From Phreatobacter sp. (GTDB lineage Bacteria > Pseudomonadota > Alphaproteobacteria > Rhizobiales > Phreatobacteraceae): a stretch of 64,000 nt of DNA. The notes beneath the pieces were generated by a model that had not been told where the DNA came from, did no database searches, and was given only the letters and a program-made list of their open reading frames with translations. Below, one piece after another: positions 56,794-62,931 of the stretch (position 1 is its first letter; every line of letters starts with the position of its first letter). The position numbers and the translations under genes are program-made. The DNA is taken from assembly GCF_022843985.1 (NCBI RefSeq), contig NZ_JALHMP010000007.1, forward strand, positions 124,001 to 188,000, written 5' to 3'.

Positions 56794-57057
56794 ATGCGCA
56801 TTCCCTGCCCCTATTGCGGCCCGCGCGACAGTTCGGAATTCGCCTATCTCGGCGATGCCGCGCCGCGCCGGCCGGCTGATGGCGATGCCGCCGCCATGGC
56901 GACCTATGTCTATCTCAGGGACAACCCGGCCGGCCCGATGGAGGAACTCTGGTACCACGCCTATGGCTGCCGCGCCTGGCTGGTCGTGCGCCGCGACACC
57001 CGCGACCACGCCGTCACCGGCGCGCGGCTCGCCGCCGGCCGCGAGGCCTCGGCATGA
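56794..57057 (+). CDS. soxD: Sarcosine oxidase delta subunit
   Basis: The 87-residue protein has zinc ligands C-P-Y-C at residues 5-8 and a His/Cys pair in W-Y-H-A-Y-G-C, as in SoxD. It binds the tetramer as a small zinc subunit. It begins 6 bases after soxB and overlaps soxA by 4. Confidence 0.92.
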   Translation: MRIPCPYCGPRDSSEFAYLGDAAPRRPADGDAAAMATYVYLRDNPAGPMEELWYHAYGCRAWLVVRRDTRDHAVTGARLAAGREASA

Positions 57058-60014
57058 GCAGCCATCGTCTCGGCACCGGTGGCCTCGTCGATCGGCAAAC
57101 ACCTATCGGCTTCAGCTTCGACGGCCGTCCCCTGACGGGGCTGGCCGGGGATACGCTAGCCTCGGCGCTCGTCGCCAACGGCATCCGGCTCGTTGGCCGC
57201 TCGTTCAAATATCACCGCCCCCGCGGCATCGTCTCGGCCGGCCCGGAGGAGCCCAACGCCCTGGTGGAGAAGGGCCGCGGCGCCTATCGCGAGCCCAACA
57301 CGCGCGCGACCACGGTCGAGCTCTATCCCGGCCTCGACGTCGCCAGCCAGAACCGCTGGCCCTCACTCAGGTTCGACGTCCAGGCGATCGGCCAGCTGGC
57401 CTCGCCGCTGCTCGCTGCCGGCTTCTACTACAAGACCTTCATGTGGCCGGCCGCCCTCTGGGAGCGCCTATACGAGCCGGCCATCCGCCGCGCTGCCGGT
57501 CTCGGCAGCCTGTCGGGCGCGCCTGACCCGGACTTTTACGAGAAAGCCTATGCCTTCTGCGACCTCCTGGTGATCGGTGCAGGTCCCGCTGGCCTCGCTG
57601 CCGCCCTGACGGCGGGTAGGGCCGGGGCACGGGTCATCCTGCTGGAGCAGGACTTCGCCCTCGGCGGCCGGCTGCTGGCGGAGAGGTGCGAGATCGACGG
57701 CATGCCGGGCGCGGTCTGGGCCCGCGAGGTGGAGGCCGAGTTGGCGACGCTCGCCAATGTGCGCATTCTCAGCCGCACCGCCGCCTTCGGCCTCTATGAC
57801 GGCGAGGTCGGCGCGGTCGAGCGCCTCACCGACCATCTCGCTGTGACGCCGGCGTGCATGCCGCGCCAACGTCTGTGGACGCTGGTCGCGGCGCAGACGG
57901 TGCTCGCCGCCGGTGCCGTCGAAAGGCCGATCGTCTTCGGCGGCAATGATCGGCCCGGGATCATGCTGGCCTCGGCCATGCGCAGCTACATCCAACGCTT
58001 TGCTGCCCTGCCGGGCCGGAGCGTCGCGGTCTTCACCGCCACAGATGACGGCTGGCGAACGGCCGAAGCCTTCGCGAGGGCCGGCGCGCCGGTCGCCGCG
58101 GTGATCGATTCGCGGCGCGATATCGTCGCATCGGTCAGGGCGCTCGCCGGCGACGTACCGGTCTTCCTCGGCGCCCGGGTGCTCGATGCCATCGGCGGGC
58201 AATCCCTGTCGGCGATCGAGGTGATCGGAGATCACGGTCGCCGCCGCATCGCCGTTGACGGCCTCGCCGTCTCCGGCGGCTTCAACCCCGATCTGGCGAT
58301 GACGACCCATCTCGGTCACAAGCCGCGCTGGTCGGAGACCAGTCTCGCCTTCCTGCCTGATGCGCTGCCGGCCCATCTCGTTGTGGCGGGCGCGGCTGCC
58401 GGCCGCTTCACCCTGGCCGAGGCCCTGGCGGACGGTGCCCGTCTCGGCGCCGCGGCGGCCGGCATGGCCGGCAAGCCCGCGGCCGCGCCGCCGGCCTGGC
58501 GGGCCAGCGACGAGACCTTCGCCGTCGGGCCGCTGTTCCATGTCGAGGGCGGACGCGGCAAGGCCTTCGTCGACCTGCAGAACGACGTCACCGACAAGGA
58601 CGTCGCCCAGTCGGTGCACGAGGGTTTCGTCTCGGTCGAGCATCTCAAGCGCTACACCACGCTCGGCATGGCCACCGATCAGGGCCGGACGTCGAACGTC
58701 AACGGCCTCGCCATCCTCGCGCGCCTCACCGGCCGGACCATTCCCGAAACCGGCTCGACGCGGGCGCGGCCGCCGCACGGCCCGGTCGCCATCGGCGCCT
58801 TTGCCGGCCTTCACACGGGGCCGCATTTCAAGCCGACCCGGCTGACCGCCGGGCATGGCTGGGCGGAGGAGCAGGGCGCCGTCTTCGTCGAGACGGGGCA
58901 ATGGCTCCGGGCCCAGTGGTTCCCGCGCCCGGGCGAGACGGACTGGCTGGAGAGCGTCACGCGCGAGGTTCAGGCCGTGCGCTCCGGCGTCGGCATCTGC
59001 GATGTGTCGACCCTCGGCAAGATCGCCCTGGCGGGACCGGATGTCGGCGTCTTCCTCGACCGGGTCTATTGCAACACCTTCTCGACCCTGCCTGTCGGCA
59101 AGGCACGCTACGGGCTGATGCTGCGCGAGGACGGCTTTGTCATGGACGACGGCACGACGGCGCGGTTCGGCGCGGAGGACTATCTCCTCTCCACGACCAC
59201 GGTGAATGCCGGCAAGGTCATGCAGCATCTCGCCTTCTGCCATCAGGTTCTGTGGCCCGAGCTCGACGTGCAGATGGTGTCGGTCACCGAGCAATGGGCG
59301 CAGTTCGCCGTGGCTGGCCCGCAGTCCCGCGCGCTGCTGCAGCAGGTGTTCGGTTCCGCTGTCGACCTCTCCGACGCGGCTTTCCCCTATCTCGCCTGCG
59401 GCGCCTTCCCGCTCGGGCCGACCATGGCGCGGCTCTTCCGCATCTCCTTCTCGGGTGAGCGCGCCTATGAGATCGCTGTTCCCGCCGGCTATGGCGACGC
59501 CCTGGTCCGCGCCCTGATGGCGGGAGGGCGCGACCTTGGCGTCACTCCCTACGGCACCGAGGCCCTCGCCGTCATGCGGATCGAGAAGGGGCATGTCGCC
59601 GGGGCCGAACTGAACGGCCAGACCGTGGCGCGCGACCTGGGGCTCGGCCGGATGATGTCGACAAAGAAGGACTATATCGGCCGCCTGATGGCCGAGCGCG
59701 CGGCGCTGAACGACCCCGACCGGCCGACACTGGTCGGGCTGAAGCCGACCGTCCCGGGCGTGCGTCTGCGCGCCGGTGCGCATTTCCTGCCCATCGGGGC
59801 GGCGGCCAGCGCCGAGAATGACCAGGGCTACATGACCTCGACGGCCTTCAGCCCCTCCCTCGGCCACTGGATCGGCCTCGGGCTGCTGGCGCGCGGGCCG
59901 GAACGTATCGGCGAGCAGATCCGCGCCTATGACCCGATCCGCGGCGGCGACGCCGTCGTCGAGGTGGTGAACCCCGTCTTCATCGACCCGGAAGGAAACC
60001 GCGTCCATGGCTGA
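57054..60014 (+). CDS. soxA: Sarcosine oxidase alpha subunit
   Basis: The 986-residue protein is the usual length. It has an N-terminal [2Fe-2S]-like domain region (F-S-F-D-G-R-P-L-T-G-L-A), a NAD-binding G-A-G-P-A-G-L-A-A (about residue 180) and a C-terminal aminomethyltransferase (GcvT-like) half that binds folate. SoxA transfers the methyl-derived one-carbon unit to tetrahydrofolate. Overlaps soxG by 8 bases. Confidence 0.94.
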   Translation: MSSHRLGTGGLVDRQTPIGFSFDGRPLTGLAGDTLASALVANGIRLVGRSFKYHRPRGIVSAGPEEPNALVEKGRGAYREPNTRATTVELYPGLDVASQNRWPSLRFDVQAIGQLASPLLAAGFYYKTFMWPAALWERLYEPAIRRAAGLGSLSGAPDPDFYEKAYAFCDLLVIGAGPAGLAAALTAGRAGARVILLEQDFALGGRLLAERCEIDGMPGAVWAREVEAELATLANVRILSRTAAFGLYDGEVGAVERLTDHLAVTPACMPRQRLWTLVAAQTVLAAGAVERPIVFGGNDRPGIMLASAMRSYIQRFAALPGRSVAVFTATDDGWRTAEAFARAGAPVAAVIDSRRDIVASVRALAGDVPVFLGARVLDAIGGQSLSAIEVIGDHGRRRIAVDGLAVSGGFNPDLAMTTHLGHKPRWSETSLAFLPDALPAHLVVAGAAAGRFTLAEALADGARLGAAAAGMAGKPAAAPPAWRASDETFAVGPLFHVEGGRGKAFVDLQNDVTDKDVAQSVHEGFVSVEHLKRYTTLGMATDQGRTSNVNGLAILARLTGRTIPETGSTRARPPHGPVAIGAFAGLHTGPHFKPTRLTAGHGWAEEQGAVFVETGQWLRAQWFPRPGETDWLESVTREVQAVRSGVGICDVSTLGKIALAGPDVGVFLDRVYCNTFSTLPVGKARYGLMLREDGFVMDDGTTARFGAEDYLLSTTTVNAGKVMQHLAFCHQVLWPELDVQMVSVTEQWAQFAVAGPQSRALLQQVFGSAVDLSDAAFPYLACGAFPLGPTMARLFRISFSGERAYEIAVPAGYGDALVRALMAGGRDLGVTPYGTEALAVMRIEKGHVAGAELNGQTVARDLGLGRMMSTKKDYIGRLMAERAALNDPDRPTLVGLKPTVPGVRLRAGAHFLPIGAAASAENDQGYMTSTAFSPSLGHWIGLGLLARGPERIGEQIRAYDPIRGGDAVVEVVNPVFIDPEGNRVHG

Positions 60015-60591
60015 TCTCGTCCATCGCGGCGGCTATGCCGGCCTCGGCCGGCGGGTCGGATCAGGCGACGGCGTTGTCGCCGTCGAGCAGGCGGGGCTTG
60101 CCGCCGCCACGGTCATCGCCCGCCGCGGCAAGGCGGAGGCTGCCGCGGCCCGGCTCGGTGGCCATCTCGGTCTCGCCGTGGCGGATGCGGCCAAGCGCGC
60201 GGTTTCCCCGGCCGCGACCGTCCTCGGTACCGGGCCCGGCACCTGGCTCGTCTTCGGCGGGGAGGATCCGGGGTTCGTCGCAGGTCTCGCTGCCGCGCTG
60301 GCGGGCCTTGCCGCAGTCATCGACCAGTCCGATGGCCAGGCCGTGCTTCACCTGAGCGGGGCGCGGCTGCCGGAGGCCCTGGAAAAGGGCGTCAGGATCG
60401 ACCTCGATCCCGCGCGCTTCACGCCCGAGGACGTCGCCGTCACCTCTATCGCCCATATCGGCGTCACGCTGTGGAAGATCGACGCGGCGCCGACCTTCGC
60501 GGTCGCCCTTCCGCGCAGCTACGCGGGCAGCTTCCGGCATTGGCTCGAGGCCTCGGCGGGACCTGCCGGCCTCGCGGTGGTGTCGGACTGA
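60007..60591 (+). CDS. soxG: Sarcosine oxidase gamma subunit
   Basis: The 194-residue protein has the SoxG/GcvT-like fold with a late H-I-G-V-T-L-W segment. It completes the heterotetramer soxBDAG. The bchE promoter region lies in the 104-bp gap that follows. Confidence 0.9.
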   Translation: MADLVHRGGYAGLGRRVGSGDGVVAVEQAGLAAATVIARRGKAEAAAARLGGHLGLAVADAAKRAVSPAATVLGTGPGTWLVFGGEDPGFVAGLAAALAGLAAVIDQSDGQAVLHLSGARLPEALEKGVRIDLDPARFTPEDVAVTSIAHIGVTLWKIDAAPTFAVALPRSYAGSFRHWLEASAGPAGLAVVSD

Positions 60592-60628: not shown

Positions 60629-60642
60629 TTGATGTGCGTCAA
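60629..60642 (+). promoter_or_regulatory. FNR/FixK-type box upstream of bchE
   Basis: TTGATGTGCGTCAA matches TTGA-N6-TCAA and TTGAT-N4-(A/G)TCAA. Its right half overlaps the first CrtJ/PpsR-type palindrome. With the centre at -41.5 the RNA would start near 60677, just before the ribosome site. Confidence 0.65.
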
Positions 60643-60654
60643 TTGGAGATGACG
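60637..60654. promoter_or_regulatory. CrtJ/PpsR-like palindrome 1 (degenerate)
   Basis: CGT-N12-ACG (CGTCAATTGGAGATGACG) is a degenerate form of TGT-N12-ACA. It lies 8 bp before the perfect site. Confidence 0.5.
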
Positions 60655-60662
60655 GAATCTTG

Positions 60663-60680
60663 TGTCAATTTTGATTGACA
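60663..60680. promoter_or_regulatory. CrtJ/PpsR-type palindrome 2 (perfect)
   Basis: TGTCAATTTTGATTGACA is an exact TGT-N12-ACA site. The full inverted repeat (60659-60684) has 11-bp arms CTTGTGTCAAT and ATTGACACAAG and a 4-base centre. The right arm runs into the AAGGAGG ribosome site of bchE. Confidence 0.75.
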
Positions 60681-60694
60681 CAAGGAGGCAAGCC

Positions 60695-62317
60695 ATGCGG
60701 ATCCTGTTCGTCCACCCGAACTATCATTCCGGCGGCGCCGAGATCGCCGGCACGTGGTCGCCCTCCTGGGTCGCCTATCTCACCGGCCACCTGCGCCGCG
60801 CCGGCTTCGACGACATCCATTTCATCGACGCCATGACGGAGGATGTCTCCGACGCGGATCTCGCCCGTCGCATGGCGGAGCTGAAACCCGACGCCGTGGG
60901 CGTCACGGCGATCACCCCGTCGATCTACAAGGCGGAGGAGGTGCTGAAGATCGCCTCCGAGGTCGTGCCCGAAGCGGTGCGCGTCCTCGGCGGAGTCCAC
61001 GCCACCTTCATGTACAAGCAGGTGCTGAGCGAGGCGCCCTGGGTCGACGTGATCGTGCGCGGCGAAGGCGAGGAGATCTGCACCGCCCTGATGAGCGCCA
61101 TCCGCGACAGGCTTTGGCCCGCCACCCGCCGCAGCATCAAGGGCCTCGCCTTCCGCGACGGCGACGAGATCGTCGCCACGGCGGCCGCGCCGACCGTCAA
61201 GGACATGTCGACTATCAAGCCCGACTGGTCGATCCTGGACTGGCGCAAATACATCTACCTTCCGCTCGGCACCCGCGTCGCCATTCCGAACCTCGCACGT
61301 GGTTGCCCCTTTACCTGCTCCTTTTGTTCGCAGTGGAAATTCTGGCGTGACTACCGGGTGCGCGACCCGAAAGACGTCGTCGACGAGATCGAGGATCTCG
61401 TGGTCAATCACGGCGTCGGATTCTTCATCCTCGCCGACGAGGAACCCACCATCAACAAGAAGAAGTTCGTCGCCTTCTGCGAGGAGCTCATCGCCCGCGG
61501 CCTGCCGGACAAGGTCAAATGGGGCATCAACACCCGCGTGACCGACATCTATCGCGACCGTGACGATCTCGCCTTCTACCGCAAGGCCGGCCTCGTCCAT
61601 GTCAGCCTTGGCACCGAGGCGGCGGCGCAGCTGAAGCTCGACCAGTTCAACAAGGAGACCAGGGTCGAGGAGAACAAGACGGCGATCCGCCTCCTGCGCG
61701 AGGCCGACATCTTCGTCGAGGCACAGTTCATCGTCGGTCTCGATAACGAGACGCCGGAGACCCTGGAAGAGACCTACCGGATGGCCTGGGACTGGCAGCC
61801 CGACCTCGCCAACTGGTGCATGTACACCCCCTGGCCCTTCACGCCGCTCTACCAGGAGATCCGGGACCAGGTCGAGATCTTCGACTTCTCCAAATACAAT
61901 TTCGTCACACCGATCATGAAACCGGCGGCGATGGAGCGCGGCGAGCTGCTCGACGGCGTGATGAACAATTACCGGCGCTTCTACATGCAGAAGGCGCTGT
62001 TCCACTATCCCTGGCGCGGCACCGGCTTCCGTCGCCGCTACCTGCTCGGCTGCCTCTACGCCTTCCTGCGCGCCGGCTTCAAGCGCACCTTCTACGACCT
62101 CGGCAAGGCCGGTTACTGGGGTCCGCAGACCAAGAAGACGGTCGATTTCCATTTTGACGAGACCCGCACCATCGCCGAGGCGCAGCTCGAGGACTGGGAA
62201 GCCTCCGCCGATCGGGCCGCCAAGGCGGCGGAAAGGCGCGATGCGGTGCGCGCCCAGATGAAGGAGCGCGCCGAGGTCCGGGCCTGCGGCGGCGGCCCCT
62301 CGCATACCCACGCCTGA
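60695..62317 (+). CDS. bchE: Anaerobic Mg-protoporphyrin IX monomethyl ester cyclase BchE
   Basis: The 540-residue radical SAM protein has an N-terminal cobalamin-binding-like domain ([19 protein letters not shown]) and a radical SAM Cx3Cx2C cluster at Cys204, Cys208, Cys211 (G-C-P-F-T-C-S-F-C). The start and the length fit BchE, which forms ring E of bacteriochlorophyll without O2. AAGGAGG lies 6 bases before the ATG. bchJ follows. The upstream O2-responsive sites agree. The other candidates are generic B12 radical SAM proteins. Confidence 0.9.
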
Positions 62318-62334: not shown

Positions 62335-62931
62335 ATGGCCGAGGGCCATCAAGGTCGGGCGGCGCTGATCGGTCCCAATGCCGTGCTCCAGCTGCTGCCG
62401 GTGATCTCGCGGGAGTTCGGACCCCGGCGCCTTGCCGTCATTCTCGAGCGCGCCGGCCTTGCCGTCCTCCCGGACGGCAGCCGGATGATCGCCGAGGAGG
62501 ACGCCGCGCGCCTGCACCGGACCTTGCGCAGGGAGGAGCCGGACGCCGCCGTCCGGATGGCGCGTGACGCCGGCCGGGCGACGGCGGACTACATCCTCGC
62601 CCACCGGATTCCGCGAATCGTGCAGCAGGTGCTCAAGGCCCTCCCTGCAGGGCTGGCCGCGCCGCTGCTCGCCCGCGCCATCACGCGGCACGCGTGGACC
62701 TTCGTCGGCTCGGGCCGGTTCCGCTGCCGGGATTCCTGGACCTTCGAGATCACCGACAATCCGCTGATCCGCGGCGAGCACAGCCCGGTGCCGCTCTGCA
62801 TCTGGCATGCGGCGGTGTTCGAGCGGCTCTATGCGACGCTGGTCGCACGCGATTGCCGCTGCGCGGAGGAGACCTGCGCCGCCCAGGGTTCTGGCACCTG
62901 TCGCTTCGTCATCCGCCGCGGAGAGGCCTGA
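62335..62931 (+). CDS. bchJ: BchJ, V4R-domain bacteriochlorophyll synthesis protein
   Basis: The 198-residue protein has the V4R/4-vinyl reductase-type C-terminal domain with C-R-C-A-E-E-T-C-A-A-Q-G-S-G-T-C-R and follows bchE by 17 bases, the usual purple-bacterial bchE-bchJ order. It was first named 4-vinyl reductase, but true vinyl reductases are known elsewhere; it more likely supports substrate delivery. The third gene bchG usual in some species is absent. Confidence 0.88.
   Translation: MAEGHQGRAALIGPNAVLQLLPVISREFGPRRLAVILERAGLAVLPDGSRMIAEEDAARLHRTLRREEPDAAVRMARDAGRATADYILAHRIPRIVQQVLKALPAGLAAPLLARAITRHAWTFVGSGRFRCRDSWTFEITDNPLIRGEHSPVPLCIWHAAVFERLYATLVARDCRCAEETCAAQGSGTCRFVIRRGEA

Follow-up and report, generated by a model that had tools for sequence, protein, structure and literature searches.

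A probable composite FNR/PpsR oxygen switch in front of a free-standing bchE-bchJ operon

How would a bchE gene that lies far from the other photosynthesis genes be switched on at the right oxygen level? Many purple phototrophs possess genes for two unrelated cyclases, AcsF and BchE, according to the account of these enzymes in PMC4944227, and the question is raised here by a bchE-bchJ operon in the window (i.e., the whole 64-kb stretch of DNA that was analyzed). As for the identity of the gene, its product scores 825 bits against the NCBIfam equivalog TIGR02026 (cut-off 481), and the domains PF02310 and PF04055 are both over cut-off. The operon is free-standing, with sarcosine oxidase genes upstream and a P-type ATPase gene downstream. 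The first-pass annotation had placed bchEJ outside a photosynthesis cluster, and this holds: the operon is on contig C7, while the photosynthesis gene cluster is on contig C20, and there are no bch, crt, or puf neighbors in the window. The locus comprises the following features.

57054..60591, + strand: soxA (sarcosine oxidase alpha) and soxG (gamma-like, under cut-off), unrelated upstream neighbors
60629..60642, + strand: FNR/FnrL-type box TTGATGTGCGTCAA, TTGA-N6-TCAA, with left half TTGAT and right half GTCAA
60637..60654, no strand: distal PpsR-like palindrome CGTCAATTGGAGATGACG (CGT-N12-ACG), degenerate, 4/6 TGT/ACA bases
60660..60683, no strand: extended perfect dyad TTGTGTCAAT-TTTG-ATTGACACAA around the proximal palindrome, with 10-bp arms and a 4-base center
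60663..60680, no strand: proximal PpsR/CrtJ palindrome TGTCAATTTTGATTGACA, exact TGT-N12-ACA, TGTCA-N8-TGACA
60682..60688, + strand: probable ribosome-binding sequence AAGGAGG, assigned from sequence (bchE ATG at 60695)
60695..62317, + strand: bchE, anaerobic Mg-protoporphyrin IX monomethyl ester cyclase (TIGR02026, B12-binding and radical SAM)
62335..62931, + strand: bchJ (V4R domain), second gene of the operon, assigned by family match

Upon re-reading and re-indexing, the three motifs first noted upstream of bchE proved correct base for base, coordinates included. The FNR box departs from a TTGAT-N4-ATCAA-like box at a single position, where the right half has G instead of A. It was also claimed, correctly, that six bases are common to the distal palindrome and the FNR box (the right half GTCAA included) and that 8 bp separate the two palindromes (60655-60662). 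The dyad around the proximal palindrome, self-complementary at 20 of its 24 positions, touches AAGGAGG, which we take to be the ribosome-binding sequence from the familiar consensus. In FNR class II promoters, the box is centered 41.5 bp before the transcript start. By this geometry, bchE transcription would start near 60677, inside the dyad, which agrees with the earlier suggestion that the proximal palindrome covers the -10/start region. This placement derives solely from the FNR geometry, since no sigma-70-like hexamer pair was found at the bchE promoter of the window.

Each motif alone is weak evidence. In the 64-kb window, TGT-N12-ACA has four matches, with 3.4 expected, and TTGA-N6-TCAA has one, with 0.15 expected, a count reached by 13 of 100 shuffles. 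A pattern search of the whole class returned 19 matches in 17 of 385 genomes (the reversed pattern returned one), of which only four, the window among them, precede bchE within 1.5 kb. Since the motifs are singly near chance in a window of this size, the case must rest on comparison.

We therefore compared 108 bchE upstream regions, including that of the window, which represent its nearer relatives rather than all bchE genes. A protein scan of genomes provided the best 80 of at least 576 BchE relatives, reduced to 79 because L008 starts inside bchE. In the order of the window, 397 genomes were searched and BchE was found in 40, from which 30 loci were taken (the window included, and L134 without upstream DNA). 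Motifs were counted within 110 bp of the ATG against a background of 200 dinucleotide shuffles. TTGA-N6-TCAA is present in 94 of the 108 regions (shuffle mean 0.42) and exact TGT-N12-ACA in 91 (shuffle mean 3.1), while both occur together in 83, a coincidence that averages 0.02 in the shuffles and never exceeds 1. The combination is not due to chance. Moreover, the two sites keep a register. When the start of the FNR box is subtracted from that of an exact PpsR palindrome, the offset is +8 in 34 cases, +32 in 8, +33 in 48, and +34 in 8, with only 8 palindromes elsewhere. In the 64 rows with a perfect proximal palindrome, the offset from the FNR box is 33.0 ± 0.5 bp (range 32-34), whereas the ATG follows the palindrome at anything from 12 to 41 bp. 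Since the distance to the FNR box is fixed and that to the ATG is variable, the proximal palindrome is part of the promoter and not of the ribosome site.

This register also bears on whether the dyad could be an RNA hairpin that gates the ribosome site instead of a protein operator. A perfect inverted repeat of ten base pairs abutting AAGGAGG would suit such a hairpin, but the palindrome is tied to the FNR box and not to the ATG, and the arms beyond the TGTCA/TGACA core are incompletely kept in the same 64 rows, the inner pairs in 37, 30, 29, and 14 and the outer pairs in 28, 20, and 23. In addition, a class II start inside the dyad would mean that the dyad is not fully transcribed. We rejected the hairpin, which is very improbable, on the register and the conservation of the arm pairs, and consider the dyad a putative operator hereafter.

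Across lineages, there is no positive link between having the FNR box and having an exact palindrome (six independent pairs, none agreeing and about one opposing). Six bchE promoters (L042, L043, L048, L061, L067, and L070) have neither box in exact form and display a similar degenerate TTTGA-like element with the end GCAAAG, possibly reflecting loss or change of a regulator; L048, titled only Alphaproteobacteria, groups with Sphingomonadales rows in the tree. Within the order of the window, L138, L142, L146, L147, L150, L153, L154, and L158 have kept an exact PpsR palindrome and show no exact FNR box within 110 bp.

The upstream palindrome is more variable. At its register, 63 of the 94 regions with a box score at least 4/6, and 34 have an exact TGT-N12-ACA. 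The gap between the two palindromes, measured in the 81 rows in which the proximal one scores at least 5/6, is 7 bp in 58, 6 bp in 11, 8 bp in 11 (the window being one of these), and 5 bp in one. The cooperative pair at 8 bp proposed in the first-pass annotation has little or no support from these counts, since 7 bp is the commonest gap at bchE and the window has a weakened upstream palindrome.

It is in the half of the FNR box which faces this palindrome that the bchE promoters depart from expectation. In the 94 boxes, the left half is TTGAT in 74 and the right half GTCAA in 79; at the mirror position of the right half, A occurs in only 14 and G in 79. We used as a control the ccoN promoters of the order (31 loci: 30 taken from 65 genomes with ccoN plus that of the window's own genome), which have an FNR box in 27. 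The right half reads ATCAA in 22 of these 27, and the left half has T in 21. Because the bchE set comes mostly from another order than the ccoN set, a same-order recount was made. In Hyphomicrobiales only, 26 of 34 bchE regions have the box, with A in the right half in 6 and T in the left half in 21; the difference from ccoN in the right half has a p of 2.7e-5, uncorrected for kinship. Together, the ccoN and same-order contrasts show that the deviation from the FNR consensus is confined to the half that faces PpsR. A half-site, TGTCAA, held in common with PpsR would explain this bias.

An AC[AG] far half of the upstream palindrome accompanies 55 of the 79 GTCAA right halves versus 2 of the 15 others (p 6.5e-5, uncorrected for kinship). 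When kinship is allowed for, eight independent pairs are left, of which about four agree and none oppose (median p 0.125), which is consistent with the link, although short of proof. Covariation between the two outermost bases of the upstream palindrome (T paired with A, and C with G) was also considered, having a Fisher p of 0.003 over 74 rows, and was dropped. It is not claimed because nine independent pairs, with on average 1.9 agreeing and 0.6 opposing, give a median p of 1.

What, then, of the upstream palindrome in the window itself? Taken alone, CGT/ACG is the weakest element, since its level (4/6, with T in the third place) is equalled by 45 of 540 control registers. In the congeners L132 and L133, the palindrome reads CGT/TCG and scores 3/6, with gaps of 7 bp. 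The FNR box and the proximal palindrome might thus do all the work in this genus, the upstream CGT/ACG being a functionless relic that takes part in neither competition nor pair. Such a promoter would resemble that of L223, an R. sphaeroides-like locus without the upstream palindrome; in R. sphaeroides, PpsR and FnrL are nevertheless both active at bchE (PMC4344238, PMC4263372). Yet the 5-bp arms of the window, CGTCA/TGACG, are exact, as would be found about once in 1,000 at one fixed register, and a CGT half occurs in one of the R. sphaeroides PpsR ChIP sites, that upstream of prrA, albeit at only 2.1-fold (PMC4344238 Table 2). We regard the relic as a genuine possibility, though a somewhat doubtful one, and retain the reading in which the upstream palindrome survives in weakened form. 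Because this palindrome is degenerate, the window is a fair rather than the best example of the shared half-site.

Both types of regulator are encoded in the genome. PpsR (G000:C20:19909-21228) scores 428 bits against a curated cut-off of 275 and has PAS and HTH_8 domains; its gene adjoins one for a B12-binding PpaA/AerR-like protein. The same contig carries acsF, as well as bchC, pufL, bchH, and dxs over cut-off. On contig C9, L107 encodes a CRP/FNR protein with cNMP_binding and HTH_Crp_2 domains over cut-off and with the putative Fe-S cysteines CDTCKVRSLAVC at its N terminus, spaced as in FnrL-type sensors. Its best NCBIfam hit is FnrL (NF045989), with 180 bits for a cut-off of 300, and of the solved structures, FixK2 matches it best, better than FNR does. 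For these two reasons, we call it FnrL-like and not FnrL. With genes for PpsR and a cysteine-bearing FNR-type protein both present, the reading does not fall for want of a regulator, as the first-pass annotation had allowed that it might. In the congener G003 (contig C39, 99% completeness), PpsR is over cut-off and neither AcsF nor BchE is over threshold; this genome either has neither cyclase or has one that went undetected.

The genome also contains other sites of both kinds. Perfect TGTCA-N8-TGACA palindromes number seven in 4.33 Mb, with about one expected. By position relative to called genes, four lie on the cluster contig, before dxs, a prenyl diphosphate synthase gene (probably crtE, under its cut-off), and bchC, and about 0.3 kb before bchH; of the others, one precedes a light-harvesting complex (LHC) antenna gene, one precedes bchE, and one is elsewhere. 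The palindrome at dxs, which encodes the isoprenoid entry enzyme, is just upstream of the gene (G000:C20:3759-3776; L121), and that before the LHC antenna gene (G000:C8:109216; L124, 5217) is on a contig separate from the cluster. As for the FNR-type box, TTGAYNNNNRTCAA is found in 10 distinct places, whereas its reversed pattern yields 4. Two of the boxes lie between ccoN and hemN, and others are at hemA, at a usp gene, and at bchE, the targets being named by sight of the protein starts and ccoN also by family. No TTGA-N6-TCAA box was found in the 60 kb examined of the 84-kb contig C20.

Which member of the CRP/FNR family would act at the bchE box is a separate matter. A FixK- or Dnr-type protein could do so in place of the cysteine-bearing one, as the genome has 14 HTH_Crp_2 matches (9 over cut-off), members of this family have boxes in common according to passages of PMC2908626 and PMC4263372, and the L107 protein itself matches FixK with 146 bits (under cut-off) besides having FixK2 as its best solved relative. 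The boxes at ccoN, hemN, hemA, and usp and the cysteines of the L107 protein speak instead for an FnrL-type sensor. We consider a FixK- or Dnr-type regulator unlikely at this box, and the two possibilities are not mutually exclusive.

With an FnrL-like protein as the preferred activator, the elements before bchE would probably form a composite oxygen switch spanning 55 bp, with PpsR keeping the operon off in air and the FnrL-like protein turning it on at low oxygen. In air, PpsR bound at 60663-60680, over the -10/start region by class II geometry, would block bchEJ. When oxygen falls, the FnrL-like regulator would bind TTGATGTGCGTCAA, some 41.5 bp ahead of the start, and activate transcription, PpsR repression being relieved. 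Production of the oxygen-sensitive BchE would thus be confined to conditions in which AcsF, the cyclase that requires oxygen, is unable to function. A second PpsR palindrome exists in many relatives, and one of its half-sites (TGTCAA) would coincide with the right half of the FNR box. Binding of the FnrL-like protein and of PpsR to this common half-site would then be mutually exclusive. The upstream palindrome would survive in weakened form in the genus of the window (CGT/ACG in the window). The combined redox control of bchEJ proposed earlier is therefore likely in this species, from the conserved register and the presence of both regulator genes, while paired PpsR binding there is uncertain.

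If true, sharing of a half-site by activator and repressor would be a simple answer to the choice between AcsF and BchE. It would also account for correct regulation of bchEJ far from the cluster or after moving between genomes, and the natural promoter variants, in which the shared half is intact, weakened, or lost, offer a ready panel for testing the switch.

The position of bchEJ outside the cluster, on which the first-pass annotation had remarked, is common. Of the 79 loci from the best 80 relatives, 51 have flanks (up to 5 kb) without similarity to the photosynthesis cluster of this genome. The FNR box and a perfect palindrome are in register in 41 of these 51 loci and in 27 of the 28 with similarity to the cluster, and in all 79, bchE is immediately followed by a bchJ match. 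Of 50 genomes in which PpsR was sought, comprising one inside-cluster case and 49 of the 51 outside it, 46 yielded a match. None was found for L013, L016, L019, and L026, though exact proximal palindromes precede bchE there; L013, L016, and L026 are titled metagenome assemblies and may be incomplete. No such title is borne by L019 (G786, Roseobacter sp. WL0113), whose bchE is preceded by both the FNR box and an exact palindrome.

Plasmids carry bchE as well. Among the three Alphaproteobacteria records looked at, of six with bchE, pSC52_1 has the full composite and, besides bchJ, no annotated cluster gene in its 4-kb flanks. The Roseinatronobacter plasmid has bchE next to ppsR, with the box and the proximal palindrome present, and the Skermanella plasmid has the proximal palindrome and no exact FNR box. 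Moreover, two genera of the window's order each contain both close (85-90%) and distant (68-70%) BchE proteins (G079 and G114 versus G233, and G076 versus G031 and G141). In a quick BchE tree, made without bootstrap, the window falls inside a set of 40 rows (99% SH-aLRT) in which Rhodobacterales account for 18, Sphingomonadales for 8, and Hyphomicrobiales for 10, with 4 unassigned; a further 22 rows from Hyphomicrobiales are in a different, weakly supported part of the tree. The plasmid copies, the mixed BchE proteins within genera, and the tree together make horizontal exchange of bchEJ likely. We put forward, as a tentative extension, that TGTCAA, as half of the activator box and half of the repressor operator at once, might have been selected across Alphaproteobacteria as a single-half-site exclusive switch, bchEJ with this switch being exchanged as a self-contained cassette that reads the FNR and PpsR proteins of the recipient.

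How does this compare with known systems? Control of bchE by FNR and PpsR is already known. What appears to be undescribed is the half-site shared at bchE, its weakening in the window, and its absence in the model species, as a literature search covering titles, the starts of abstracts, and passages yielded no account of a shared FNR/PpsR half-site at bchE. That proteins of both types regulate bchE, as first supposed, is borne out in R. sphaeroides, where PpsR and FnrL both act on the gene (PMC4344238, PMC4263372, PMC2908626). In its bchEJGP operon, activated by FnrL/CrpK and repressed by PpsR, the FNR box at -67 is likewise followed by a palindrome 33 bp downstream of the box start. Both regulators have been located there by ChIP, with 21.9-fold enrichment of PpsR at bchEJ (PMC4344238 Table 2), and FnrL has also been studied with reporters, in which mutation of T-57 in the box costs about 90% of FnrL-driven activity (PMC4263372 section 16). 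Against activation by FnrL, bchEJGP transcripts are higher in an fnrL mutant under one condition (PMC4263372 section 8).

We searched 394 genomes for the PpsR motif that PMC4344238 gives for R. sphaeroides and obtained two hits. The exact one, in G875 (L223) at contig position 2007709, is within the published peak (2007600-2009599), and we infer from coordinates and motifs that G875 is R. sphaeroides. In gene orientation, its promoter has the box TTGACATGCATCAA followed by the palindrome TGTCAACTGAAATGGACA 33 bp from the box start, and the T of TCAA is at -57 from the ATG, the same base as in the published mutation. Provided that G875 is R. sphaeroides, the box and +33 palindrome of the common register are thereby anchored in experiment. 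L222, the hit with one mismatch, has the same layout and an ATCAA right half. A shared half-site in R. sphaeroides, suggested by the motif in PMC2908626, was ruled out because the gene-oriented TTGACATGCATCAA has no such overlap. R. sphaeroides thus differs from the bchE set in that its right half is ATCAA and the register of the upstream palindrome reads CATCAATTTGCCCGCCAC, and its bchE adjoins a ppsR-like gene (RSP_0282 in PMC4344238). Since this species has no shared half-site, work there would not have revealed an exclusive switch. The ccoN promoters of the window's order also have boxes of the same family, presumably for the same regulator, but their right half is mostly ATCAA, as seen above.

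Among aerobic phototrophs, Dinoroseobacter shibae provides another case of a stand-alone bchE-bchJ (Dshi_2636-2637), alongside an acsF-bearing cluster (Dshi_3501-3547), its off-cluster position being judged by locus numbers; the passages of PMC10890935 on these genes do not mention any regulatory site for bchE. CrtJ of R. capsulatus binds at bchE (PMC5362033), and the CrtJ sites of bchEJGP in that species are far apart from each other (PMC6199135). A close parallel to the paired palindromes is bchC of R. capsulatus, where two CrtJ palindromes separated by one short gap span -35 and -10 and the relevant passages describe no FNR box (PMC5362033, PMC6199135). The bchE set differs from this arrangement in its usual gap of 7 bp and in an upstream palindrome that overlaps an FNR box.
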